From positions 31,586,505-31,650,504 of the forward strand of contig CM026571.1 in the NCBI GenBank assembly GCA_015143295.1: a stretch of DNA of 64,000 bases. The letters run 5' to 3'. The stretch is from Tetracentron sinense (taxonomy: Eukaryota; Streptophyta; Magnoliopsida; Trochodendrales; Trochodendraceae). Shown here piece by piece: positions 1 to 55,490 of the stretch (its first letter is position 1; the number at the start of each line of letters is the position of its first letter). Position numbers and translations under genes: made by a program. Below the pieces are notes generated by a model. It saw nothing but the letters and a program-made list of their open reading frames with translations, did no database searches and was not told the DNA's origin.

Positions 1-1613
1 AAAAACCAGAAATAGCGATACTGTGTTTACCGTTATTTCTGGATTTTCCCAGAAACTAATATTTTCCCCACAGTGGTGCACTGTGCTGCTTCCAGGGGAT
101 CCCTCATAAGCTGAGGGTCCCCTAGAAGGTCAGGAGATGTGCCATAGGCTATGAGGTTGGGATTGTTACCTAGGAGGGGTCCCCCATACCTATGAGGAAG
201 GTAAGGGGAGCCCCTGCTCTTGGGTTATGCAGTAAAATAGAATATGAAGTACCCTAGAGTAGGACCAGGGGCTCACAGAAATGTTTTTATAGAAAAAAGG
301 GGTAGGGGGAGGCCCTACCCTACTGCTACCCTTCACCAGTGGTGGTGACTTCGGTGGTGGTGATGAACAGTGGTGGTGGGCATGGTGGTGATGTTGCCCA
401 GCTGGGAGGAGGCCTAGGATGGTCTTGGGAACTTCTGGTGATGCTTGGGTGAGGCTGGAACTCAAGGGCAGCAAAGCAGAGGTTCGAATAGGGGATTCAA
501 CCATTGGAGATGAAGTGGGGAGCTTGAGATTTTATAGGAGGAGGTTTAGGGACACAGGGGAATAGTACATGTGTAGGCGAAGGCTTCAGGAGGGAATGAG
601 GGCTGTCAGAGGTGTTCTTGAGCACTGGGGGGAGCAGTTGAGCTGCAAAACACGCAAATAGGGAATGGTAGTAATTCCAGTACCGCTATTCCCCTTCAAG
701 GCTAAAGAGATAATGGCGGTAGAAACTCTACCGTCATTTCTGATTTTTACCCAGAAATGGGTCTGGCCCTGTTTACACGCGGTATAGCTTGGAGGATTTT
801 GAATTTTGGGCCTTATTTAGGCCTAGCTAGGGTTTAAGTCATAGGGGCCAAGGGTTTTGCATGGGTCTTGGGCCCATGCCCTAGGGTTGTTGGGTTAGGC
901 TAGGGCTAGTCCTAGGGTTGACTTCGATTGGACTAAGGTTGACCTAGGGCTAACTAGGGTTTAACCTAGAGTTTAGATGGGGTTCAACCTAGGTTTGACT
1001 AGGATTTATCCTAGGGTTAACCTAGGATTAAGAAAGGTTGACCTATGGTTTGACCTAGGGTTAACTAGGGTTTAACCTAGGTTTGACTAGGGTTTGTCAT
1101 AGGTTTAGACCTAGGGTTTATGTAGAGACCCCGAATCTTTTTCATGTTTTTACTTCATTGTATTAGGGGTATTATAGTCCTTGTGATGTTTTGATGTTTA
1201 TTGTATTATATATTTATTTGGTGTGGTGTAAACTAGGCTTAATCAAACTTGTAACGGAGGGATGTCATATCACACCCTAAACTTTAGGAAGCTCTAGTTT
1301 TGGTACCGTTTACTAGAATTGAGTGATTCTTGAATCATTAGAAAGGTGTTGGAACCCTCTTCGAAGTTCATGTTTAATGTTTTTCCTTATTTTGAGTTTA
1401 AGCCAAGTCAATGGTGGGTTTTATCTAATGGAATTGCAGATCAGTCAACTTTGGGGATAATTTAGTCTATTAATTAAGTGGAATTTAGAAATTCTAATGC
1501 CAAAAATGTTCGTTTTCGAGAGACGAATCCAACCCAAGTTGAATCGTCAAAATCCGTCGAGTGAGTCAAAAGTTATGGCCAAAACAGTAGAGTAGGTCAA
1601 AAATCTATAGGCA

Positions 1614-15936: not shown

Positions 15937-16389
15937 CTATGAACACGGATTTCGGCTCACCGGGATTAAGAATCGCCACCTATTTATTCTAAGGGATAGG
16001 TCCTAAGATTGCATGGATAAGGTCTTATGATCTGCATTAGAGTTCTAGGTAAGAGGTTCGGTTAAGTCCAAAGGAAGGTGTTAGGTACCCTAGGACCCCC
16101 ATTTTGCAATGGTTAACTACTCCCTAGGTATAAGTCAAATTAATGTCAAGTATCATTCAAATGCCTTAATATTTATTTTATACTAATCCAAGAAATGAAA
16201 AGTTAACTAAAGTCGAACCCAGGTTGGGTTGCCTACGTACTAACATGGGGTGAGATCAGACCGAGTGTAGTTCTGACACATGAGCCCGTGTTGAAGCTAA
16301 GGGGAGTGTGTGCACCGGAGTGGCTAAGGATCTAGCTCTGAGGCTAGGGTTTGGTTGACCGGGTTGGTCAAGTACAAGGTTTATGATGA

Positions 16390-16560
16390 TTTGGGACCGG
16401 AGGCCAAGGGTTAGCCCGGCAGGCTAAGGGTTTAGTCCGGTAGACTAAGGTTGGGCCCGATAGGCTAAGGATGGGCCCGATAGGCCAAGGGTTAGGCCGG
16501 TAGGCTAAGGGTTAGCTCGGTAGGCCAAGGGTTATGCCCAGTAGGCCAAGGGTTTGCTTA
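16390..16560 (-). repeat. GGCCAAGG/GGCTAAGG minisatellite in the LTR of A
   Basis: About eight units of 20-23 bp such as GCCCGATAGGCCAAGGGTTA with variants CCCGGCAGGCTAAGG and CCGGTAGACTAAGG. Counterparts are in the LTR of C (about 37800-38045) and of D (about 49430-49680, reverse orientation). Confidence 0.75.
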
Positions 16561-16861
16561 TGGGTTAATTCGATTAACCACAGTTAAGGAGGAGGGCTAA
16601 CCATGGTTAGGACTGTTAACCATGGTTATGAGGTCCAAATTCATGTTTTTGGTCTTTTTGAATTTTTTAGATATTTTAGAATTTTTTAGGATTTTTCCAA
16701 TGATTAAAGGGGTTTAACTATGGTTAAATGCTAACTAAAGTTTAGTTAACCCCAGTTAAGAGCATGGACTGGTTTGAATTGGACCCAGGTGACTTGGCAG
16801 GGCCTAGAATGACCTCCTACCAGGTTTGGCCCCTATATAAGGCTCATTTAAAAGAAAACTG

Positions 16862-17995
16862 GGATTGGTGGTAAACTATTTACTGCCAATTCCAATCCTT
16901 TAGAGATTTGGAATGGCGATTAAGAGTTCACCGCCATTCCCAGTCTTTTTTTAGAATGGCTTCGTAGGTCAGGGGAGGAGTTAGGGCTTAACCCAGGAGG
17001 TCATGGACCCTCAATGCTTGTTAGGGGACATTCCTAGGTGTTCAGGGCCTGTTGTGGGCCCTAGGCTTGGTCTTAAATGGGCCCACAGTGGCCATGTTTG
17101 CACTGTGAGACAAATCCCAAAATGGCGATAGACTGTTTACCGCCATTCTGGTCAATTTCAATTTTTTTAGATTTTAACCATGGTCAAGCAAATGGGGTCA
17201 GCCTAGACAGACCAGGGTAGGCTCAGGGAGGTGTAGGGACCAAGTCCAGCCCTGGAATGGACCAGGGCTCAACCAAATGGGGCATATGGCCACTGAAATG
17301 AGGAAGACCAGAAATTGCAGTACTGTGTTTACCGCAATTTCTGGATTTTCCTAGAAATTGATATTTCCCCCACAGTGGTGTACTGTGCTGCTTCCAGGGG
17401 ATCCCTCATGAGCTGAGGGTCCCCTAGAAGGTCAGAGGATGTGCTATAGGCTACGAGGTTGGGATTTTTACCCAGGAGGTCCCCCATACCTATGAGGAAG
17501 GTAAAAGGAGCCCCTACTCTTGGGTTATGTAGTAAAATAGAATATGAAGTCCCTTGGAGTAGGACCAGGGGCTCACAGAAGTGTTTTTACAGAAAAATGG
17601 GGTAAGGGGAGGCCCTACCCTACTGCTACCCTTCACTAGTGGTGGTGACTTCGGTGGTGGTGATGCATAGTGGTGGTTAGGATGGTCCTGGGAACTTCTG
17701 GTGATGCTTGGGTAAAGCTGGAACTCGAGGGCAGCAAAGCAGAGGTTCGGATAGGGGATTCAACCATTAGAGATGAAGTAGGGAGCTTAGGATTTTATAG
17801 GAAGAGGTTTAGGGACATAGGGGGAATAGTATAGGAGTAGGCAAGAGGCTGCAGGAGGGAGTGGGGGCTGCCAAGGCATGCCTAAGCACTGGGAGGAGCA
17901 GCTGAGCTGCAAAACATGCAAACAGGTAATTCCAGTACCGTCATTCCCCTTCAAGGCTAAAGAGATAATGGCGGTAGAAACTCTACCGCCATTAC
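16862..17995 (-). repeat. Stem-loop set in the 5' LTR of A
   Basis: Short inverted repeats with arms around AATGGCGGTA / TACCGCCATT: 16862-16892, 16911-16940, 17121-17148, 17308-17344 (CCAGAAATTGC...GCAATTTCTGG, 11-bp arms) and 17966-17995. The last lies upstream of the TATA box and the others downstream, so most would be in the transcript. The same sets occur in C and D. Confidence 0.8.
17793..17799 (-). promoter_or_regulatory. TATA box of the 5' LTR of A
   Basis: Minus-strand CCTATAAAATCC; conserved at 530-536 in the left LTR. D has CTCTATAAAACCC at 48256 in the matching place. Confidence 0.6.
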
Positions 17996-18412
17996 TGGTT
18001 TTTACTCAAAATTGGACCTGGCCTTGTTTGCACGCGGTACGGCTTAGGGGATTTTGAATTTTTGGGCCCAAGCTAGGGTTTAAGCCCTAGGGGCCTATGG
18101 TTTTGCATGGGTCTTGGGCCCATGCCCTAGGGTTGTAGGGCTAGGCTAGGGCTAGTTCTAGAGTTGACTTCGAGTGGACTAGGGTTGACCTAGGGCTAAC
18201 TAGGGTTTAACCTAGGATTTAACTGGGGTTCGACCTAGGGTTAACTAGGGTTTGTCCTAGGGTTTAACTAGGGTTAAGAAGGGTTGACCTAGGGTTAACT
18301 AGGGTTTAACCTAGGTTTGACTAGGGTTTGTCCTAAGGTTAGACTTAGGATTTAACTGGGGTCAGGGAGTTTAACTATGGTTAAGAAGGGGTGTAAAAAT
18401 TAGGTGCTTACA

Positions 18413-19013
18413 AGTGCACTCCTCAGTTGCTGATGAGTCAGGCTAAAAAAAATAGAACAGTAGCTTCTGCTACTTCACTTGTCAACGAGTACTAAGAGCT
18501 GAATCTCACTCATCAACGAGTCCTCTGATTTTTCTCAGAAAACTCATTTTTGCTTAACCAAATCGAAGAACATGATTTCCATGGTCTTATACCTTATCTT
18601 TAACAAGATATTTATCATGTTTTAGGTCCTTAGATTGATATTCAATTAGGTCTTTTGGCACCTATGGTCAATCTATGTATTGAGCAATTCAACCAACCAA
18701 ACTTTGAGGATTTCTTACATAAATCCTAAACTCTTTAAATAAACAATAAAACCTTCTAAAGACTTTAATCTTCATTCTTGATCATGAATGGATTTCTTCT
18801 TTAGCTTCAACATCCGACTTGGACCATGGGCATGATCTTGATCCAATTGCTTGGTTGCTATTTTTATCTTCTTACCTTTGATGATGTGTTAATGCTCTTC
18901 ATAAATTGAATTATACTTAAACTCAATAAAACATTAGTAACAAAAATGTTCTATTATTGTGTTATCATCAAAATCAAAGATGTTACCGTAGGTCAAAAAT
19001 CTAACCACTAACA
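18413..19013 (-). repeat. 3' LTR of B (partial)
   Basis: Matches 37070-37268 over its first 190 bases and then continues to the LTR end CCACTAACA. It includes decayed members of the ACTCGTCGACGAGT palindrome array (18420-18515). Confidence 0.75.
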
Positions 19014-29831: not shown

Positions 29832-32112
29832 CTAGAAGGGAATTCAGATAAAAATTTATGCAGAAAACTGGATCTCGAGGATCTTTACACCATATAAAGC
29901 AACTAATACTATTTACAAGGTTTAGTCAAATTACCTCGGTAAATGATGTTCACCGGTGAAGCAAAAACCAACTCGAACTGTCAGAACTCTTTGTAGAGAT
30001 TTCTCGAAGAAATACTCGAAGCTCGATCCTTGTTCTAATCTATCCCCGCGAAGCTTTAGAATCTCTACTTACAATTGAAGAAGCAAGAAGAAGAAGATGG
30101 ATGTTGGTGTAGACTTTCTATCACCCAAATACCCTAGAGTTCAAAACCCTAGGCTTCAAACAACTTGGAGTATCCCTATGAGGCTCACAAAAATCCAAGG
30201 GGAACTCCCTTGGGGCTCACAGTTTGGAGAGAGAAAATTGAGAGAGAGAGTTGAATTCATCCTCTCTCACAATTTGGGGTATGTGCATATATATAGGATT
30301 TGGATCGTATCCCAATCCTAATCCAATTAGAAGTTTATCCCTCGGGAATTAATAAATAATAACTCTTATCATTAATAAAAATAAACTCTTAGTTTATCTA
30401 TAACTACTATAGTGATGATAAACCTACTAATTAAGGAGTCCTTTTCCAAAAAGATTCCTTAAATAAAGGGATTAAACCAACTACCTCAAAATTGGAATCC
30501 TAATCCAATTAGGAAAGCATTCAAAGGGGGGGCGTGAACCATAAGGGGGCATGAGCTATAGGGGACTCTTGGACTCCTAGTTTTAATACAATTCCATCTT
30601 ATCTCAATCCCACTTCCATTCCAAGTATTGAAATTTAATTCCATAAATAAAAGAGTTATTATTCAATAATTATTCAACTAACCTAATCCTAATCCAATTA
30701 GGAACGCATATGTGGGCACCCCACCCTAAGGATCAAATCCATGGGCTTGGGTCCACATTTAAGGTCCATACTTTATGGGTTTATAGATATGGGTCAAACC
30801 CATTTCCCCTTTCATTAGGTTAATTAAATAATTACTAATATAATCCTTTAATTTAAATTAACAATTAATTTAAACCATAGATTAACATTTAAACTATTTA
30901 ATTAATTATTAACATTTAATCATTTAAATAATTGATTAACATTTAATCAATAGTTTGAGCTTGTATTTCTTATGTGAGCATCTCCACAGATTGCTCTGGG
31001 ACATTCAAATCGTGGCTTACCCAATGTTATCCCATTGACCCTAAACAGGAGTTACATCAGAATTGCAAGTAACGTGAGATATCCATGTTACAATTGAATC
31101 CCAGTGTAAGAACATTAACCAATACACATGAACTTTTTAATTCAATTAATCCTTCCAAATTACATTATCCTTAATGGGCCTTTGAGATTATTTATTCTAT
31201 CTAACTCATAGCCCATTGCATATCATCCGGGTTTCCAAGACTTCTGATTAAGCCATGAGAAACATTTTCTCATGTAAAACATTTTGAGAAAAACCTTTTT
31301 ATAAGTATAGTATATTTTAATAAAAATATATTTCAAACTTATTTTGTTTCAAAATCACCTGCGCAAGATTTAAGCTTAATCGACTATCTTATCCCGGAAC
31401 TTTGATAATCTCTCAAATTAATGAGCATGGATTTCTTGTTTGAAATTCATCATGACTCGAACAGCTTTTTGACTATCCAATTGTCACCGTATTGTAGTCC
31501 CTAAGATAGAGAATACTTTAATGGAATCAAAACAGTCAGATTACTGCTCAGTTATAAATGAACTCATCAGATCTAAGGATCATTGAAACTGTTCAATGTG
31601 AATGAGAGATCAACTATCTGATAGTATGTTTATGCAGGAGGTCTCTCATTGCATGCAATCAGTCAGTGTACATTTAAACACCCATATGCTAATGTGTAGT
31701 CTCCACTACAATAGTTTGAGATAAAACTATATCTCAACCATTGAGAACATCTTAGCATTGTAATAGCAATATAAGTGAAGTGCCCAGCTTCACTCATAGC
31801 TGTGACTATATAAGGGATAAGGAACTGGAAAGAAATATCTGCCTGTGATTCTAAAGCCTGAAAACTTTTTGTATATGTCTTGGAATGTGTGCCAAGACAT
31901 AATACCTTGTAATGTCAAATTTCATGATATGATAATTTGAAAACTTAGAGAATTGTCTCAAGGATACTATAATTAATTACATAAATTATCTAATAATAAA
32001 CTATAGCCTTACAAGTGTCCTAGGCAAGTTTGGAAGAGGTTAGAATAAAAGTAGGACAAGTCCAAGTAGTAGGAAATGATGAAATATGGACTCAGGGTCA
32101 AAACCTGCAGAC

Positions 32113-32298
32113 ACCGATCACTTGGTCCATTGTAGCGATCGATCGGTCCTCAACCGATCGATCGGAGGCTATCGACTGGTGAACTTTTTTGTATGGGAAA
32201 ATTTTCCAGAGAGCATGTTTTTGACCGATCGCTCGGTTAAGAACATCGATTGCTCAGTAGGCAATCGATCAATCGGTCATAACCACCGATCGCTCGGT
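32113..32298 (+). promoter_or_regulatory. S3 U3 palindrome array (ACCGATCGATCGGT)
   Basis: Six or more copies of the same palindrome word as S1 (for example at 32113, 32153 and 32285). The shared run TTTTGTATGGGAAAATTTTC between units shows S1 and S3 belong to one family. Confidence 0.7.
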
Positions 32299-36293: not shown

Positions 36294-37268
36294 TGTTGCC
36301 TAAGGAATGGATCCTAGAGGGGGTTGATTAGGGTCTATGGCAAATTAAAAATTTGACTCCAATTCTCTAAGTGGAATTTCAACTTAATTAAGTTAAAAAG
36401 AATTGAAAGTAAGCAATTCTAAACATACATTCAAACAAGAATTAAAGAAATAGAGTTAGATAAAATGCAAACACAAGTTAACACACGATGTTTGTTCCCG
36501 AGGTTCGGCAACCTACCTACTCCCCCACCTTAAGCTCTCCTGCTTGAAGGATTCACCATGATTCATTCCAAATCCCCAATCTCTCTTCTAGGTCAAGACT
36601 AAAACCTTGCTAGGGAACAATCCTCCCTAGACTTAGTCCACTTTCCAAGTTGGGACCTAAGCTTTAACAAAGCTCTTCGGCTTCACGAACAAAACTCCCA
36701 TGGACATCTTGATTTTACTACCTCTTTGACAATAGTAGTTTTTGCATTTAGATAATGATCCTTACACGAGTTGATAAATGCCTATAACACTCTCTAGAAA
36801 TCCCCCAAGGATTGGAGTTGAAAAGCTCAAGAACTTGGATTTGGGGATTCTAGGTTATAACTCAATAGATTTAAAATCTTAGCTTTGGAGTAATGAATTG
36901 AATGATTAGAAGTATTGGAGTTATTTTTTTCATTCACACATCATCTAATTTTATAGCCCGTGCAAATATATAGCCGTTGGGGAAGCATTGAGAAAACTAT
37001 GGTCGTTAAAAACTAGTCGTTACAAGCCTTTCCCACAACCATTCGTCGACGAGTGCACCAGTCCACTCCTCAGTCGTTGACGAGTCAGACTAAAAAAATA
37101 GAACCGTAGCTTCTGCAACTTTACTCGTCGACGAGTGCTGAGAACTGAATCTCACTCGTCCACGAGTCCACTGATGTTTCTCAGAAAACTCATCTTTGCT
37201 GAACCAAATCGATGGACATGTTTCCATGGTCTTATACCTTATCTTTAACAAGATATTTATCATGTTTA
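36294..37268 (-). repeat. 5' LTR of B (incomplete)
   Basis: Plus-strand start TGTTGCCTAAGGAATGG. It contains the minus-strand TATA box GCTATAAAATTAG (36949-36955) and the palindrome array (37041-37169). It stops near 37268, where the other LTR continues; the missing part is not next to element C. Confidence 0.8.
37041..37169 (-). promoter_or_regulatory. B LTR palindrome array (CTCGTCGACGAG)
   Basis: Palindromes ATTCGTCGACGAGT, CAGTCGTTGACGAGT, ACTCGTCGACGAGT and ACTCGTCCACGAGT, about 90-220 bases upstream of the TATA box in the minus reading. The other LTR has the same units with more CG-to-TG/CA steps. Confidence 0.7.
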
Positions 37269-37330: not shown

Positions 37331-39877
37331 TAGGGTTAGAGACGGGATTTTCCAACCATGGTTAAAACAGTGTGTGAGCACGGGATTTTACTCCGCCTCA
37401 CGGGTAAAAAGGATATGTTGAGAGTCGCCACCTATTAATTCAGAAGAGATAAGTTGGATTGTGGATAAGGTCTTGGTCTACGAGAGAGTTCTAGGTAAGA
37501 GGTTCGGTTAAGTCCCAGGGAAGGTGTTAGGCACCCCAGGACCCCCATTTTGCAATGGTTCCCTACTCCCTAGGTATAAGCCAATTAAAGTCAAGATTAT
37601 TCAAATACCTAAGTGATTAAAGTAATACTAACCCAAGAAAGAGAAAGCTAACTAAGGTTAAACCCAGGTTGGGTTGCCTACGTACTCATAATGGTGAGAT
37701 CAAACCGAGCGTAGTTCTGGCACATGGGCCTATGCCAATGTGTGTGCACCGAAGTGGGTAAGGGTCTAGCTTAGAGGCTAGGGTTTGGTCGACCGGATTA
37801 GTCAAGTGCATGGTTTAGGCCCGATAGGCCGAGGGTTAGTCCAAGAAACTAAGGATTAGTCCGGTAAACTAGAAATGGGCCCGGTAGGCCAAGGTTAAAT
37901 TAAACCAAAGTTAGGGGTGCTAACCGGGGTTAAGGGTCAAACTAACCATGGTTAGGATTGCTAACCATAGTTGAGGGTAACAAAGTTAGGCCCGGTAGGC
38001 CAAGGGTAAGCCCAGTAGGCTAAGAGATTAGGCCCGGTAGGCCAAAAAAGAATTTAACCGGGGCTTAGGGTTGTTAACTGGGGTTAAATAGGAATTCAAC
38101 CATGGTTAGGATTGCTAACTATGGTAAAGGAGTCCAAAGCAAAACATTTTGATCTCAACAACAAGTTTTGGAAGTTTTTAGAATTTTCCAAATTTTTTCA
38201 AGGGTTAAGGGGGCCTTAACCATGGTTAAAAGTTAACCGGGTTGAGTTAACCCTGGTTAAGGGTCTGGAGTGAGCCTAGATAGCATGGCAGGGCCTAAAA
38301 TGGCCTCCTACCTGGTCTGGGCTCTGTGTAAAGCCCAAAACATAGAAAATCAGTAATGGCGGTAAAAGGATTACCGCCATTACCAAGCATTTCTAGCATT
38401 GGTTTGCAAGCCTGAGGAAGGTTGAGGGTGACGCCCCTGGGGTCAGGGACCCTTTAGGGTTGAAGAGGGGACTCCCTTGGAAGTCCTGGCCTTTGGTGGG
38501 CCCTAGATCTGGTCTAAAGTGGGCCCAAGGGGGCCATAAACACACTGTAAATGGAACTTAAGAATGACGATAGAGTATCTACTGCCATTTTGGGCAGTCT
38601 CTGGTTAGGGGTGTATTAACCATAGTTAAGCAACACTAGTGACCCTAGAAGGACCAGAGTAGATAGAATAGGATCTGAGGAATCTAACCATAGCCCTGGA
38701 ATGGACCAGGGCCTAGCTAAAAGGGTGTAACAGATGCTATAATGAAAATGGTCAGGAATTACGGTACTGAGTTTACCGTCATTCCTGATATTTTCCAGAA
38801 ATTAAATTTTTATCCCTTGGGTGCAACCAACTTGCATCCAGGGGATCCCTCATTGACTGAGGGTCCCCCAGATGATTAAAGGTGATACTATGCACGGTAA
38901 GGGCCCTTGTGGCCAGAGTTCTGAACCCTCAAAGGGTCCCCCATGCCAATAAAGAGGCAAAGGGGGCCCTGTCCTTGGGTGAGTAAGCAACACAACAATA
39001 AAAATAGAAGAAGAGGACCCCTAGAGTAGGACCAGGGGTCTTATATTACATTTACATAGAAAATAAAAGTTTAGGGAGGATCCTACCCTGCCGCTCAGCT
39101 CCTACAATGGTAGAGGCGTGGTGCACAGTGGTGGTACAAGGCTGGGATAGGCTGAGGTTAGGGCTGGGGTGGCCTGAGGTTGCTCCCTTGTTGGCCTAAG
39201 GTTTTCCCTTAGGTATTCTGGACTGAGAACAGAAGGGGTTTTGGGTTTCACAAAGTTCCAAACAGGGGTTTCACGTAAGTTTCTTGAAGTGGTCATAAAG
39301 CATGGAGAGGGGGAGTATTTACAGAGTTAGAAGGACCCAGGGGTACTCTAGGGATTAAAATGGAGGTTGAGAACCCCAGGGGGCGGAGCTGAGGAGGCCA
39401 GGGGGTGCCAGCTGCACTTTGAACCAGAAATCCAGTAATGGATGTAGAATTTCTACCACCATTTCTAGTTTTTTGCTAAACAAAGCCCAACCCTCTTCCG
39501 ATTGGTCTGATTCATTGTACAAATTACTAAATATGGAAATGGCGGTAATGTTATTACCGCCATTTCTGGATTTTTCAAAAATTGAACAGTGGGCCCCACC
39601 CCAACGGCTCCTGAAGGTATGTGGGCCCATGTTAGGGCCCACAGGATGATTTGGCTTTGATTTTGAGGTTCTTGGGCCCTAGAGTTTACCTAGGTTTAGG
39701 CTTAGGGTTAGATTAGGGTTTACCTAGGGTTTGACTGGGGTTTACCTAGGGTTTTACCTTGGGTTTGACTAGGGCTTTACCTAGGGTTTGGCTAGGGTTT
39801 ACCTAGGATTTTGGGTGACTAACCATGGTTAATATTTTTAACCATGATTAAGGGGGTGTAAAATTTGGGTGCTTACA
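37331..39877 (-). repeat. 3' LTR of C (about 2.5 kb)
   Basis: Ends GGGTGCTTACA followed by the polypurine tract (GTTGCCCCTCTTTGCC on plus). Same internal order as the A and D LTRs: AACCATGGTT and GGCCAAGG arrays (37790-38280), stem-loops at 38353-38383, 38573-38600 and 38752-38788, then 39434-39466 and 39537-39565, and CCTAGGGTTT-rich sequence (39680-39830). The left edge is placed by comparison with the end of the D LTR. Confidence 0.8.
38353..39565 (-). repeat. Stem-loop set in the LTR of C
   Basis: Five inverted repeats of the GGCGGTA/TACCGCC type. Two are perfect: 38353-38383 (GTAATGGCGGTAA, 5-base loop, TTACCGCCATTAC) and 39537-39565 (AAATGGCGGTAAT, 3-base loop, ATTACCGCCATTT). The others are decayed. 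Confidence 0.85.
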
Positions 39878-47060: not shown

Positions 47061-47697
47061 TCGGAGGTTATCGTCACATGCCGCCTAAGATGTCAAATGC
47101 ACGGACAGACTTTATATGAGTGTACTGTGTATGCAGATGAAAAATGCAAAATGATTATGATTGTATTTTTTTGATTTTTGATAATTTTGATTAGGTGTGA
47201 CAAGGCACATATGATCCGATAGAGCAGACGGACAGAGGTTCGACATGCTTAACCCAAGTTGTTGGGAACCGGGGACCTATCAGGTCAAGATTAGGGATAG
47301 TTCCTATGACGGCTTGTTTGCTTGGGATTTGAACCTTATATGCTATGTCGAGATACGGGGTTGGATGTATTTTATTACAAGCGCAAGTTTGGTTCATTAT
47401 ATGCCCCGGGGTGGGTGCTTATCAAGGTAAAAGTATACTGATAGTTAACCATGATTGGGGACAGGTATAGAGAGTAAGAAGGTTAGGGTTCAGAGTAACC
47501 CTCTCCAGATGGGCTGCTTGTAGACTATACAATAACCTAGTATATATGTATGAATGTTGGGTTGATACAAGTGTGTTCCTAGAAAGATAAGCGCCACTTA
47601 ACACCGTATATGCGACTCCCCGGTATAGAAAATACCTGAAAATGGACGATAGGTATAAGCAGGAGCGTTCAGAATCCTTTCCTAAGGATAATCACCC
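47061..47697 (-). other. Leader of C, ending at the D junction
   Basis: Matches 14990-15660 of A. Stops abruptly at 47697, before the primer site would be reached. Confidence 0.65.
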
Positions 47698-48030
47698 AAG
47701 CACCCAATTATTACACCCCATCTAACCCTAGTTAAAGTCTTTTAACTATGGTTACACCCTGCCAAATCCCTCACAACCTAGGTAAGCCTTTACTAGCCTT
47801 AGGACCCACCCTAAGTCAAACCCTAGGAAGCCCTAGAACCAAAAACCCTAAACCCCAGGTAACCCTAGCCAAAACCTTAGTCTAGCCCTAGAGCCATTAG
47901 GGCTTGAACCATAGAGTCCAAGGCCCCTAAGGCCTAAACCTGGGGTAGGAGCCCGTAAGGCCCAAAAACCTGAGGACAACCCCCCATACCCGTATGTGTA
48001 GGGCCAGGCCCACTTTAAAATTAATCTCAG

Positions 48031-49090
48031 AATGTCGGTAGAAGGTCTACCGACATTTCATTTTGGCCTTGTTTCACAGTGTCGGTAGACCTTCTACTGA
48101 CAATATGCAAGTCTTGAGTTTCAGTCTACAAACACCCCTGCACACTCAACCCTCACCTCGGCCTCTCCCTTCAGGCCTCTTAGTCAACCTCCCCTTGGTC
48201 CAACCACCTCTTCCCCCTTCTCCTTAAACCCTTTTAGGTCCCTAGTCTTCTCCTCTATAAAACCCAATGCCTTCACCGGTTAAACTGTCTGCATTTTTTA
48301 AAGGAGAATCCCTGTTGCAAAAAACTGTGTTCCTCAGCCTCTCCTCTCCCCTGGTCTTGATCTCAGGACTTCCCTAGACCTACCTCTCCCCTCCCCTGTT
48401 CGTGTAGCACCACCAGGATGTACCACCACCGTGCATAGACCACCTCTTATTTCGGTGGAAGCAGAGCATTCGGGTAGGCTCATCCCCTACCCTCATTTTC
48501 TCCTTTTGTAATCAATGTGAGCCCTTGATCATCTCCAGGGGACGTTTTTATTACCTTCTTGGTGTGTAGATAGCATCCAAAACCCATACAGGGTGTTCAC
48601 TCACCTAAACCATAGGTGTGGTGAACCCCTACGGGTGTTCCCATTTCTCAGAGCATTGCAAGTCATCACAAAACCTTCTGGGGGTCCCTCAAATCATGAG
48701 GGAACCCCTAGTAACCTCTGTGCACAGACCCTATGGGCAGAAACCTGGTTTTCAAAAAATCAAGAATGGCGGTAATTCCAGTACCGCCATTCCTGGTAGA
48801 AACCTGTTTTCCTTTTGTCAGTGAGCTGTTTACCGACACCCTGTTTTTGGCCCAGTTTTGTATTGGCGGTAGAATAACTACCGCCAATATGAGCTTCCTG
48901 CTACAGCACTTTACAACCTAGTGGGGCCCACTCCAAGCATCCCTTGGGGCCCACACCAGACTCCCAGGAGTCCCCTTTACACTCCAATCACCTTGGTTCA
49001 CCTCAGGTTACACCTTAACCCTAGTTAACAGAGGCAAAAAACAATTCAAAAACATTACCTTTAATGTCGGTAATCCAATTACCGACATTA
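48031..49090 (+). repeat. Covarying stem-loop set in the LTR of D
   Basis: Perfect arms: 48031-48057 AATGTCGGTAGA / TCTACCGACATT; 48861-48889 TATTGGCGGTAG / CTACCGCCAATA; 49062-49090 TAATGTCGGTAAT / ATTACCGACATTA; 48764-48792 GAATGGCGGTA / TACCGCCATTC. Both arms change together (GGC with GCC, GTC with GAC). Loops are 3-7 bases. Confidence 0.88.
48256..48262 (+). promoter_or_regulatory. TATA box of the D LTR
   Basis: CTCCTCTATAAAACCCAATG, at the position matching the TATA box of A. Transcription would start roughly 30 bases downstream, placing three stem-loops in the RNA. Confidence 0.65.
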
Positions 49091-50129
49091 ACTTTGTTGT
49101 TATTTTAGGCTTTTACAGGGGCACAAGCCTAGTAGGAGGCCACTTTAGGCCCTGCCTAGCCCCCTGGGCCCACCTCAGACCGTACCAGACCCTTAACTAC
49201 GGTTAAATACACATCCGATTAACATTTAACCGCGGTTAAGCACCCCTTAACCCCACAAACTTTTGGGAAAATAAACAAAAATTCCTAAAATCAATCGGAC
49301 CATAAACCTGACTTTGGCCCCTTTTCTAACCTTGGTTAGCAATCCTAACCACAGTTAGACTACCCTTAACTCCGGTTAGCAACCCTAACCGTAGTTACTC
49401 TCGGTTTACAACCTACCGAGCCTAAAAACCAAGTCTATCGGACTATCTTTGGCATACCGGGCCTCCCCTTAGCCTACCGGGCTACGCATCACATCCCCTT
49501 AACTGTGGTTAGCAACCCTAACCATAGTTCAGCCTAACCCCGGGTAGCAACCCTAGCCCGTGCTGGATTCTATCCTAATCTACCGGACTCCCCCCCAAGC
49601 CTACCGGGCTTAAATACCATGCAGTTGACCCTCCTCGGTCAACCAAACCCTAATCTACCGAACTAGCCCATGTTAGCTACCTTTGGTGCACACACACGCC
49701 CTTAGCCTCGGCACAGGCTCACGTGCCAGAACTATGCTTGGTCTGATCTCACCCTGTGAGTACGTAGGCAGCCCAACACGGGCCCGACCCCATTTAGCTT
49801 TTCCTTTCTAGGATTAGTGTTAAATTAAACACTCCAACATTCTAATCAAGATTAACTTTAAATTGGCTTAAACCCGGAGAGTACGGAACCATTGTAAAGA
49901 CGGAAGCCTTGGGGTGCCTAACACCTTCCCCGGACTTAACCGAACCCCTTACCCTGATCTTACTCACAGACCAAGACCTTATCCAAACCTGGGGAACTTA
50001 TCCCTTCAGAATAAATAGGTGGCGACTCTTAAAAGATAAAATCCTTTCACACCCGTGAGGGTACACAGGTAATTCCAACCATCATCTCCTTTTTTATGAG
50101 TGGGAGGGAAAATTCCCGGCAGTCACAGC

Positions 50130-50150
50130 TCTGGCAACTCTGCTGGGGAC
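50130..50150 (+). other. Primer-binding site of D
   Basis: TCTGGCAACTCTGCTGGGGA two bases after the LTR end; the tRNA-Arg-type site of Ogre/Tat elements (family knowledge). Confidence 0.75.
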
Positions 50151-51120: not shown

Positions 51121-52050
51121 GGGCTTTCACCTCGAGTCCGCATCTCGTTTGGGCCTAGTACTACAAAACCGAAACTATCCTAGACCTATCCATGGTTAAC
51201 CCGGACTCGCGCCTCATGAACGCTGTTATCCAGTGTTGAAGCCCAACTCACATGGTATTCAATTTTGGTAAGAACGAGCTCTACCCAACACTGGAAGAGA
51301 TTCAACGCATTCTAGGGTTGAACATGGACGGCGAAGCCATAGTATCGCGCTACAAGACAACATAAAAGGAAGACCAATCTAGGTTCTTGTATATCAAGTC
51401 TGCCTGCTTGCAGCCCAGTCCTAACGGCTCTTTTGATCGGATACTGGTGTCTTTTCTCGAAAAGAGGTACAAGCACAAGTGGAACCCTGACTCTATTTTA
51501 GCGGAACTCCCCGGTCTTAATGCCTTTGCACTGATAGTCATGTCTCAGCTGGTTTAGCCAAGGTGTCGTTCATTCGTTGAAGCAGTTCTGGTCGGGATCG
51601 ACAAGGACATACACAACTCCTACTCAGTTGTACCAGTCATCCTAGCCGAGCTTCTCAGGGCTCTCGACCAGTCGACAAACCACAGAAAGGGCATCTTCCA
51701 TAGCAGTACACCTCTCCTGCACCTCTGGTTGGTAAGTCATTTGCCTACAATCATATCGGTACCAGATGGCATCCACAATGCCTACAATCTACCTCGAAAG
51801 ATTTCTCAGAATCAAGGTCCGATAGCAACTACAGACGTTGGAAAGCTCTACCAGCTTTTCCAAGACCTTTCAAAGGAAGAAATCACTTGGCAATGCGATT
51901 GGCTTGTACTGAATAGGCTACCTCGTGTTGTCATCACCGGCAGACGATGCATAATTCTTGCTGGTCTAACAGGCTCCACAGTCTATACACCACTCCAAAT
52001 CCTCCGGAAGTTTGGATTCCCTCAGTGTATCCCAGTGATAGACCGATAAG
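51121..52050 (+). pseudogene. ORF1 of D
   Basis: Same extra protein as in A: FNFGKNELYPTLEEIQRILG-like block near 51255, ...GLNAFALIV... near 51510, and LSHLPTIISVPDGIHNAYNL-like words near 51740. Unknown function; resembles plant mobile-domain/DUF7745-type sequences from memory. Broken. Confidence 0.7.
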
Positions 52051-53060: not shown

Positions 53061-54456
53061 AGTCACATGACAGGGACATAGCGGCCATGCAGTTAAAGCT
53101 TGACAGTGTTCTGGAATCCCTAAAGATTCTAATTGGTACCCGAACCGAAGAACCTTCCACCCGGATCCTGACCAGAGAACCAACCGAGCAACCTATACTA
53201 GAGCCTCGTCCTCCCCCCTTCATCATACTTGACCCCATACCCGCAACAGGTGGAGGAGAGGAGTATGAACAGTACGAAGAACAACCCAAGGCCTCACACG
53301 TTAACCAAGACCGGCCATCATGCTCAGACCCCACTTCATCCTTACAGGACGAAATCAAGCAGATGAAAGGGGAGATGAGAAGAATTAAAGGTGCATCCAC
53401 CAGTACAAGTCTATCACTAGAGGACTTAACTTTCTCATCAGGGGATGCTGTTCTCGCAAGTTTTAAGGTCCTAGACTTTGACAAATACGACGGCTCAAGC
53501 TGTCCAAAACAACACCTGTAATTGTACCTGGGGGACATGCTCCAGCATAACAGGAATCAGCCTTGCTCATCCAGTACTTCTAAAAGAGTCTGAAGGGGGC
53601 AGCCCTTACATGGTGGATGTCTGTAGACAAGCAGAAGGTCAAGACTTGGCAAGATGCCATGGACAGCTTCGTGGAGCAATACTCCTTTAACCAGGAGCTC
53701 TGCCCTCAGAGGAGCCAGCTTGAGTAGTTAAGCCAACATAACAACGAATCATTTCTGGAGTACGCCACCCGCTGGAGGGAAATGGCAGCAAAGATCCAGA
53801 CTCTTATCCCTAAGAAGGAACTGGCAGGCATGTTCATGGGCACTCTAAAGCAGCCCTACTCTACACTTATGGTGACCGTACCAGTGGTGGACTTCGGCAC
53901 CATCGTCAAGACAGGTGCCCGTATTGAGACTGCTATCAAGAGCGGGGCTATTCATTCCAGTCTAAGACTTGATCCCCCCAAGGCGACAGCCTCGTCCAGC
54001 AGAAACATCAGTCCCAGGGACCACAGAAAAAAAGAAGATGTACATATAGTTGCTTCTACAGAACCCATCCGACTACCAACTCCAGCAGCTCAGCAGCAAT
54101 TAGTTATCAGGAATACCCGACCAGCTCAGGCGTAAAACCGTCCTCCCAGAAACTTTACCCCTCTTCCATACACCCTCAGTTAGTTGTTGGAATTCCTCAC
54201 CAAACAGGGTCTTCTTGAGAGGCTCCACACCTCTTCTACCTCCAGATAAAAAAAACTATAATGCCAATCATCACTGCGCCTTTCATAGAGACCCAGGCCA
54301 TGCTACAGACTATTGCATAGGCCTGAAGTGTGTCATCCAAGATCTCTTGGATGATGAAAAGGTTGAGCTAGCTCCCAGCAACACCAGCATCAATCAGCTG
54401 CTACTACCCCCATAGAACAATCAAGTCAATTTTATCCAGTGGAAAGAGCCCAAATG
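53061..54456 (+). pseudogene. gag remnant of D
   Basis: N-terminal acidic linker (53087-53400), gag core with FDKYDGSSCPKQHL (near 53480), ...ALTWWMS... (near 53610), FNQELCPQRSQL-like words (near 53690), LVVTVPVVDFGTIVKTGARI-like stretch (53870-53930), and a CCHC-like knuckle CAFHRDPGHATDYC (near 54280). It continues after the organelle-like insert. Broken. Confidence 0.85.
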
Positions 54457-54892
54457 CATCATGGAGGGATTTTATCATGAATCCCTTGGTCCTATAGGAC
54501 TTATTACCACTTTATTCGGACATGGAGTCAAGGAGTATTTTATTTTTTACTTCACAAACGGGCATGCTGGATCATGCATCTATCTATATATTCTATATAT
54601 ACAGATAGATCCAAATATAGATTCACACCTGGAATGTTTCTACAGAATACTGAGGGTATCAACTCATATAGCTATGTTCTATTCGGTGGAATAAAAATAA
54701 AATATAGATTGTCTTCCGGAGAGATGGCCGAGTGGTTGATAGCTCCGGTCTTGAAAACCGGTATAGTTCTGAACAAAGAACTATCGAGGGTTCGAATCCC
54801 TCTCTCTCCTTTTACTCGTTGAATAGATTTGTTTCTTTATTGTGGTTTTGCCTGGCCCGGTATCATAAAGGGGAATGGCTCGGCTATTCCAC
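54457..54892 (+). other. Organelle-derived insert in D (plastid-like, about 435 bp)
   Basis: Comparison with A shows D sequence stopping at GGAAAGAGCCC and resuming at GGCAGCCAAGACCCAGC. The stretch between is absent from A. Its right part holds a plastid-type trnS-UGA with plastid-like flank (TTTTACTCGTTGAATAGATTTG). A 15-bp stem with ATCTATCTATATA/TATATACAGATAGAT near 54577-54612 looks like an organellar intergenic hairpin. The left 100 bases are not identified. Confidence 0.7.
54718..54809 (+). tRNA. trnS-UGA: Plastid-type tRNA-Ser (UGA), transferred copy
   Basis: Full class II cloverleaf: acceptor GGAGAGA pairs with TCTCTCC; anticodon stem CCGGT/ACCGG with loop CTTGAAA (anticodon TGA); long variable arm TATAGTTCT...AGAACTATC; T arm GAGGGTTCGAATCCCTC. 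No CCA is encoded. The sequence is nearly that of chloroplast trnS-UGA; the native mitochondrial gene differs more. The two-base shorter variable arm compared with the plastid form I remember suggests slight decay. It lies in a retrotransposon gag, so it is a nuclear plastid-DNA insertion, not expected to function. Confidence 0.88.
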
Positions 54893-55490
54893 CTAGGCAG
54901 CCAAGACCCAGCACACCCGTAGTAAATGACGGCATCATCAGGCCTTCTTACCGATCACCTATCATAATCCCCTTCCCCCAGTCAAATGTACAGACCATTC
55001 AGTCTCTAACTTCGATACCTGTCCCCGAACAGATCATCTACACAATTCCTTGTTCCACAAATTGGCCCACAGCTCCAGCTCAAGCCTCAACCTCTTCAGG
55101 CTCTATCCGGATCCCTTACATCCCAGAGCCTCCCCTTAACCTCAACCGAGTACCTGCTCCCCGCTCTCTCATCCTTGAGAGCGAGAGCATAGCCAACCTA
55201 ACCAGATCTGACCGGGTATATCAACCACCTGTAACTAAGCCAGGAAAGGTGAAGAGTGCAAAGAAAGAGAAAGCAGGGGTGTCAGACCCACAGAAGGAAG
55301 TAGCTGATTCAGTAGTTTTATTGAAAATCCTAGAAAAAGCAGAGGAGTTCAATATCACTCAGCAACTGAGCAAGGTCCCAGTACAGATATCCATCTTGGG
55401 TCTTCTTCTCACTTTAGAGGATCACAGGAAGCAACTGCTCCGAGTATTCCGCAATGCCCATGTAACACCAGACATAATGCTCGAGAAACT
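54893..55490 (+). pseudogene. gag-protease linker of D
   Basis: Proline/serine-rich stretch, then a lysine-rich block and a helix with LEKAEEFNITQQLSKVPVQI (near 55340-55390), typical of the segment before the protease in this family. Open over 222 codons. Confidence 0.7.

Follow-up and report, generated by a model that had tools for sequence, protein, structure and literature searches.

The window analysed here, a 64-kb nest of retrotransposon sequence, holds a family of palindromes in the long terminal repeats (LTRs) of three elements, A, C and D. The palindrome array is real, conserved and covarying: its members keep one fixed spacing, recur in three diverged LTRs and show matched changes in their two arms, and it is their function that we infer. 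Our preferred reading, held tentatively, is that the LTRs of this Tat/Ogre-like Ty3/gypsy lineage have inherited a set of about five palindromic modules, which act as symmetric cis-regulatory sites, most likely at the level of DNA. A host factor would read both half-sites of each palindrome in DNA, a role of the sort proposed for the Sirevirus LTR palindromes with their CGG-CCG core. Transcription of the LTR also allows the palindromes to fold as RNA, and such hairpin RNA, a possible by-product, may enter the small-RNA silencing of the host.

Three LTR retrotransposons and their palindromes

The LTRs concerned and their landmarks are as follows.

47695..50127, + strand: LTR of element D, its start eroded to CCCAAGCACC and its end TCACA (ends from comparison with A and C)
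48256..48262, + strand: TATA box TATAAAA of the D LTR
50010..50015, + strand: AATAAA, candidate poly(A) signal of the D LTR
50132-50149, + strand: PBS-like TGGCAACTCTGCTGGGGA, after the D LTR
15938..18412, - strand: complete LTR of element A
1..1120, - strand: second LTR of element A, partial, at the window start
37373..39877, - strand: 3' LTR of element C

In these Tat/Ogre-like elements the LTRs are 2.4-2.5 kb long. They are 64% (A-C), 56% (A-D) and 60% (C-D) identical over aligned bases, and thus represent old subfamilies rather than recent copies. The lineage was assigned from a domain scan that covered D, whose coding pieces, searched separately, gave RVT_1, RT_RNaseH_2 (E 1.5e-17), RVT_3 (E 3.3e-10) and rve (E 4.5e-15) in this order; the reverse transcriptase is broken into pieces, and its RVT_1 matches are weak and below the cut-off (E 0.01-0.04). 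RNase H and RVT_3 ahead of the integrase correspond to the Ty3/gypsy order with a second RNase H, which we take to be the mark of the Tat lineage and by which we place D in Tat. Judged by the domain order read in D, the host elements would therefore be Tat-like members of the Tat/Ogre Ty3/gypsy lineage. No solved structure matched the one D coding piece queried, an integrase query found no locus among viral contigs, and the D LTR had no match among plasmids in a distant search.

Other features lie in or beside these elements. An upstream ORF of D (51558-52049, + strand) resembles the plant mobile domain PF10536 (E 3.6e-07; 30.1 bits, below the cut-off of 34.9) and matches DUF7745 (E 3.5e-06), above the cut-off of the latter. 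Where its alignment to A breaks, the D internal region carries a tRNA-Ser(UGA) gene (54718-54810, + strand, 55.3 bits), and Rfam at gathering thresholds returned tRNA only; the gene and its flanks (about 54450-54896) look like what is presumably inserted plastid DNA. A PBS-like TGGCGAYTC lies inside all three LTRs (50020-50028 in D, near 15978 in A, near 37430 in C), some 30-110 nt before the LTR end and just after AATAAA (A, D) or AATTAA (C). The sequences at 18410-18622, before A's 5' LTR, and 37057-37267, after C's 3' LTR, are the same repeat (88.7%), A and C being two elements in one target repeat; the C copy of it carries a ACTCGTCGACGAGT palindrome.

A scan for half-sites like AATGGCGGTA, with spacers of 1-15 allowed and overlaps collapsed, returned 18 copies, all 18 of them in the LTRs of A, C and D, and two degenerate copies raise this total to 20. 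The copies are listed below; S1 and S2 are presumed equivalent across A, C and D by their order.

48031..48057, + strand: D S1, AATGTCGGTA GAAGGTC TACCGACATT, perfect 12-3-12, upstream of TATA
48078..48104, + strand: D S2, AGTGTCGGTA GACCTTC TACTGACAAT, imperfect, upstream of TATA
48764..48792, + strand: D S3, AATGGCGGTA ATTCCAG TACCGCCATT, perfect 11-7-11
48814..48840, + strand: degenerate sixth D copy, TTTGTCAGTG AGCTGTT TACCGACACC, 27 nt, found by eye, below the scan filter
48861..48889, + strand: D S4, TATTGGCGGTAG AATAA CTACCGCCAATA, perfect 12-5-12
49061..49091, + strand: D S5, TTAATGTCGGTAAT CCA ATTACCGACATTAA, perfect 14-3-14
17967-17993, 17313-17339, 17121-17147, 16912-16938 and 16864-16890, - strand: S1, S3, S4, S5b and S5 of the complete A LTR
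near 17944, - strand: truncated S2 of the complete A LTR
712-738, 664-690 and 11-37, - strand: S1, S2 and S3 of the partial A LTR
39538-39564, 39437-39463, 38757-38783, 38563-38589 and 38355-38381, - strand: S1 to S5 of the C LTR

Five copies were detected by the scan in each of the C, D and complete A LTRs. The perfect stem-loops that the first-pass annotation had described in D are real (at 48031, 48764, 48861 and 49061; the stem at 48078-48104 is imperfect). The stem sequences it quoted are correct, but AATGGCGGTA is present in just one D copy, at 48765. Its placement of two stems upstream and three downstream of the TATA box is confirmed by TATAAA at 48256, and the degenerate copy is also downstream. 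In A, where TATAAA is at 17799, the upstream side holds the truncated S2 besides one detected copy, and four copies lie downstream; no TATAAA was found in the C LTR. About five sites recur overall, S1 and S2 upstream of the TATA box and S3-S5 downstream (TATAAA in A and D only), and D S3-S5 fall within R if the AATAAA at 50010..50015 serves as the poly(A) signal. Copies in U3 would be transcribed as well, at the 3' end of the RNA, and the transcript would not be limited to the downstream stems. The stems had first been tied to element D alone; the family is also present in both A LTRs and in the C LTR, so that, at the scale of the window, it is not confined to the few copies initially noticed.

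Recurrence, spacing and conservation

The window contains seven matches to the pattern AATGNCGGTA-N0..20-TACCGNCATT, where 100 shuffles gave an expectation of 0.00. Counting perfect stems whose arms measure at least 10 bp, with a loop of at most 10 and an arm GC of at least 40%, we found 11, six of them from the palindrome family, against 0-2 per shuffle (20 shuffles); the stem at 49061, whose arm GC is 29%, is outside those 11. On Markov-shuffled sequence, the half-site scan gave 0-6 raw matches per shuffle with top scores of 22-24 (10 shuffles); without their location in an LTR, the weakest of the real copies would thus not be convincing by themselves. Of the 12 CGG..CCG dyads recorded, eight belong to the family. 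A pattern scan of IMG/VR returned seven stretches, with match lengths of 24 (three), 27 (two) and 32 nt (two); blastn at E up to 1e-3 aligned none of them to the window, and they were thus taken as unrelated stems, which show that a 27-nt stem of such sequence can arise elsewhere.

The module has 10-14-bp arms around a CGGTA..TACCG core, and the spacer between the 10-bp arms is 7 bases long in 18 of 18 copies, its sequence being variable. Over the three element pairs, identity was 146/180 in the arms, 33/63 in the spacers and 160/449 in the flanks, a count limited to S3-S5 because MAFFT set A's S1 against C's S2. Within the LTR alignment, the hairpin 27-mers stand at the 67th-96th percentile of 27-base windows, other LTR stretches being equally conserved. 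Both CGG and CCG are kept in 9 of the 18 copies, one or both being changed in the other nine.

Recurrence could also arise if the 27-37-bp palindrome were a dispersing mini-element that had inserted several times in the LTR. Similar outer arms (CAGAAAT..) do recur at different sites, and the extra copies S5b in A and 48814 in D have no palindromic counterpart in the alignment of the other elements. Such insertion is nevertheless extremely improbable in our view, given that the scan found no copies outside the A, C and D LTRs in 64 kb and that the sites are common to old subfamilies.

The window contains a second CCG-CGG palindrome array, in another repeat family (1600-1850 and 32096-32290) with ACCGATCGATCGGT-type palindromes, which in the first copy of the repeat lie upstream of a TATAAATA.

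Matched arms and the level at which they may be read

Across the alignment of 18 copies and 18 pairs, 42 cells were changed on both arms, against 20.0 (sd 3.8) after shuffling (0/500), and in the 10-bp core 8 cells against 1.8 (sd 1.2; 0/500). The number of pairs with any double change was less striking (11 versus 8.8, 36/500; core, 3 versus 1.5, 77/500). The proportion of paired cells was 81% and dropped to 28-50% when the partner was slid by 1-3 columns. To control for relatedness, the 3' arms were shuffled within site only, or within LTR only: the core contained 160/180 Watson-Crick pairs against 148.9 within site (P 0.0002) and 149.8 within LTR (0/20,000), and the same test without the left A LTR gave P 0.00045 and 0/20,000, respectively. 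The filter behind the 18 copies itself demands 7 of 10 positions paired, and the test was repeated on 20 copies, including the two degenerate ones that had been spotted by eye, giving 171/200 against 157.0 (0/10,000) and 159.2 (P 0.0001). The outer six pairs were weaker (56/108 against 47.5 within site, P 0.04; P 0.13 without the left A LTR), and positions 6-10 (CGGTA/TACCG) showed no double change. These counts, drawn from 18-20 related copies of three element lineages, a smaller basis than an R-scape test on a deep alignment would have, support the earlier claim of conserved pairing with changing sequence.

One core change occurs in concert. GTCGG/CCGAC (T-A at core position 5) is found in D S1, S2 and S5, that is, in 3 of the 5 detected copies of D, as well as in its degenerate copy, and is absent from all 13 copies detected in A and C. 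Such a switch is predicted by a changed reader or by hairpin-to-hairpin copying but not by independent pairing constraints; with many half-sites switching together, a trans-acting reader fits better than independent pairing constraints. A broader and, in our view, doubtful proposition is that arm matching itself is maintained while the palindromes of one LTR evolve in concert, either because a reader co-evolves with them or because the hairpins convert one another; the control regions of plant LTRs, in Ty1/copia as in Ty3/gypsy, would then have converged on CGG-CCG arrays as a rule, and the arm variant would serve as a family-specific address.

Arm covariation would also be produced if the stems were selected as RNA stem-loops of the element transcript, for packaging, dimerisation, strand transfer or translation, in which case S3-S5 would lie in R, at both RNA ends, and S1-S2 in U3, at the 3' end. 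Compared with 30 shuffles, the R regions gave z of -6.4 (A), -7.9 (C) and -6.7 (D) in sense and -6.6, -4.1 and -5.8 in antisense, so that the excess is larger in sense for C and D and about equal in A; U3 and U5 of D in sense also fold better than shuffles. No excess folding was seen in coding controls (z -1.7, -0.2, +0.75). The presumed LTR of B, named from direct repeats, reached -6.4 on one strand and -7.1 on the other (24 shuffles), and a high z is thus not peculiar to the palindrome family. A separate hairpin may come closer to an RNA structure.

48675..48711, + strand: hairpin X, GGGGGTCCCTCA..TGAGGGAACCCC, with one bulged A; differs from elements A and C by a double change

Located just upstream of S3, hairpin X is conserved in A, C and D with the bulged A kept, and is stabler in sense in 3/3 elements (-24.4/-31.5/-29.4 versus -21.4/-27.3/-24.3 in antisense); an RNA element may therefore coexist with the palindromes.

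The palindromes themselves fit selection on RNA less well. Their one-sided core mismatches, read in sense over 20 copies, comprise 10 G.T/T.G, 8 A.C/C.A and 11 others, which gives no sense-strand wobble preference (10 G.U-type versus 8 A.C-type; small numbers). Among the eight double-changed core cells, six are transversions, for which there is no G.U route, three being the D switch and perhaps not independent. Sense is the stabler strand for three of the five stems of D and antisense for two (one of them by 0.1 kcal/mol), the alifold energy is no better in sense (-167.7) than in antisense (-175.6), and a hairpin loop does not need a fixed spacer length. Taken together, the wobble counts, both-strand folding and transversions argue against selection solely via sense RNA, and leave DNA symmetry or templated arm correction. 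An RNA-only reading was not favoured, given the wobble counts and a both-strand folding without sense preference, and we consider it unlikely that RNA stem-loops were what was selected.

Folding of the transcript could also matter to the host, if hairpin RNA were diced into miRNA-like small RNAs and the stems served silencing, their conservation being a by-product. Using the cut-off of PMC10760457 without that paper's randomisation, in steps of 5 and on the sense strand only, we found 110-nt windows below -40 kcal/mol in A (32/473), C (45/479) and D (23/465), confined to stretches holding palindrome sites, and none in the presumed LTR of B (0/367; an AT-rich control with 33% GC) or in the D coding region (0/839). 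This coincidence agrees with a silencing role, as does the small-RNA excess over Sirevirus palindromes (PMC10760457, citing Bousios et al. 2016). Being silenced would, however, select against an element that retains its stems. Single stems of about 10-16 bp are moreover short for Dicer, and we regard this explanation as highly unlikely.

As to templated correction, matching could be kept by mutation itself, with hairpin-templated repair or template switching copying arm onto arm and producing paired changes in one step. The prevalence of transversions among the core double changes would follow from this. Also consistent with copying is a matched A-T versus T-A double change at S3 (11-37 versus 17313-17339) between A's two LTRs, which are identical at 943/1055 compared bases (89.4%); it looks post-insertion and would be unexpected then unless by conversion or recombination, provided that the two LTRs belong to a single insertion, of which one end lies beyond the window. 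Inverted, D S1 comes close to D S2, a likeness for which, given palindromy, only the three central bases carry signal. Arm copying leaves unexplained the 7-base spacing, the retention of sites across LTRs of 56-64% identity and the lack of double changes in CGGTA; one-sided changes persist (29/200 core cells in 20 copies are not Watson-Crick), and no such matching is seen at the variable pair of the TAAC..GTTA palindromes that these LTRs also carry (9/25 versus 14.0 expected). We judge it decidedly unlikely. Structure selection and arm-to-arm conversion, the causes proposed in the first-pass annotation, hold up as candidates.

The TAAC-YNNR-GTTA palindromes (TAACYNNRGTTA dyads, for example at 49194-49511 and 16575-16758) form a second family, with 25 members in the window against 0.38 expected, all in the A, C and D LTRs. 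On the sense strand, their position 5/8 pairs are C-G in 9, C-A in 9, T-G in 7 and never T-A.

Symmetric sites read in DNA, the interpretation that we prefer, are favoured by the invariant spacer, by arms more conserved than flanks, by the D switch, by the lack of strand bias, by a CGGTA free of double changes and by the low-MFE windows; we also counted in their favour that another repeat of the window has ACCGATCGATCGGT-like palindromes upstream of TATAAATA. A simple dimer site would predict one arm sequence, but copies differ from one another in both their outer and their inner pairs, and the two arms of a given copy nonetheless tend to match. Further points against DNA dyads are that three of the five D copies lie downstream of TATA, that the hairpin 27-mers are no more conserved than other LTR stretches and that only half of the copies keep both CGG and CCG. 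TACCGACAT may be akin to DRE/CRT, a site of AP2/ERF factors, and GCGGTAATT to a GT-2 site; among the papers listed for TACCGACAT in LTR retrotransposons, none bore on it by title and abstract.

Comparison with palindromes of other plant LTRs

The first-pass annotation knew of no described element of this kind in Tat/Ogre LTRs. The repeated motifs (RM boxes) of Sirevirus LTRs are comparable, though they belong to Ty1/copia and not to Tat/Ogre: they are palindromes built on a CGG-CCG core that occur in several copies close to the TATA box (PMC2829016; Bousios et al. 2010). The core is present in 12 of the 13 motifs listed there, the palindromes are conserved amid divergent LTR sequence, and the 3'LTR column of Table 3 gives 3-14 copies; the authors suggest regulation, the factor sites found being mainly stress-related (PMC2829016). 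Among the matches listed in open-access literature, none described a palindrome array in Tat/Ogre LTRs, nor did the accessible text of PMC11963269.

As in the RM boxes, the palindromes studied here are dyad-symmetric, present in multiple copies per LTR and marked by the CGG-CCG signature (both halves kept in 9/18 copies), and their arms differ between elements and match within a motif. Five copies per LTR is at the low end of the 3-14 range, and the Inga motif AGCGGTASTACCGCT, from a Sirevirus, contains the same GCGGTA..TACCGC. In contrast, the host here is Ty3/gypsy, whereas Sireviruses are Ty1/copia with integrase before RT; the listed Sirevirus motifs measure 10-20 bp against 27 bp or more, and their CGG-CCG spacing is 4-6 in the table against 11. 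The Sirevirus cluster lies upstream of TATA and forms CpG islands, while the present copies occur on both sides of TATA in LTRs whose overall CpG o/e is 0.29 (A), 0.28 (C) and 0.41 (D). A single fixed-spacing dimer shared with Sireviruses was rejected, CGG-CCG spacing being 4-7 in the listed motifs and 11 here.

In maize, hairpin regions are concentrated in Copia LTRs, which have more small RNAs, and Ty3 elements are reported to show no obvious peak; losing structure is suspected to be costly, and the paper asks why palindromes are retained in plant LTRs at the price of exposure to small-RNA silencing (PMC10760457). The palindromes of the window resemble the maize Sirevirus region in that low-MFE hairpin windows are concentrated in the LTR, and the maize motif CACCGGACNNNGTCCGGTG has matched arms, a 3-base centre and a CGG-CCG spacing of 7. 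Small RNAs have been mapped to the maize Sirevirus region; the present comparison is one of sequence and predicted folding. A second superfamily with the CGG-CCG signature would suggest that such palindromes are needed and not accidental. With about five sites kept at fixed spacing in LTRs of 56-64% identity, and with lineage-specific arm variants, the retention question becomes testable, and matched-arm swaps would separate sequence recognition from pairing.

The domain order of D (RT, RNase H, a second RNase H-like domain, integrase) and its PBS-like TGGCAACTCTGCTGGGGA are like those of Tat/Ogre elements. What is new here is a palindrome array in a Ty3/gypsy Tat-like lineage, with long arms, a fixed 27-nt geometry and copies on both sides of TATA, such palindromes being already known in Sireviruses. 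By host lineage, position and CpG island, the array falls outside the Sirevirus motif class, but by analogy it may well work like RM boxes.
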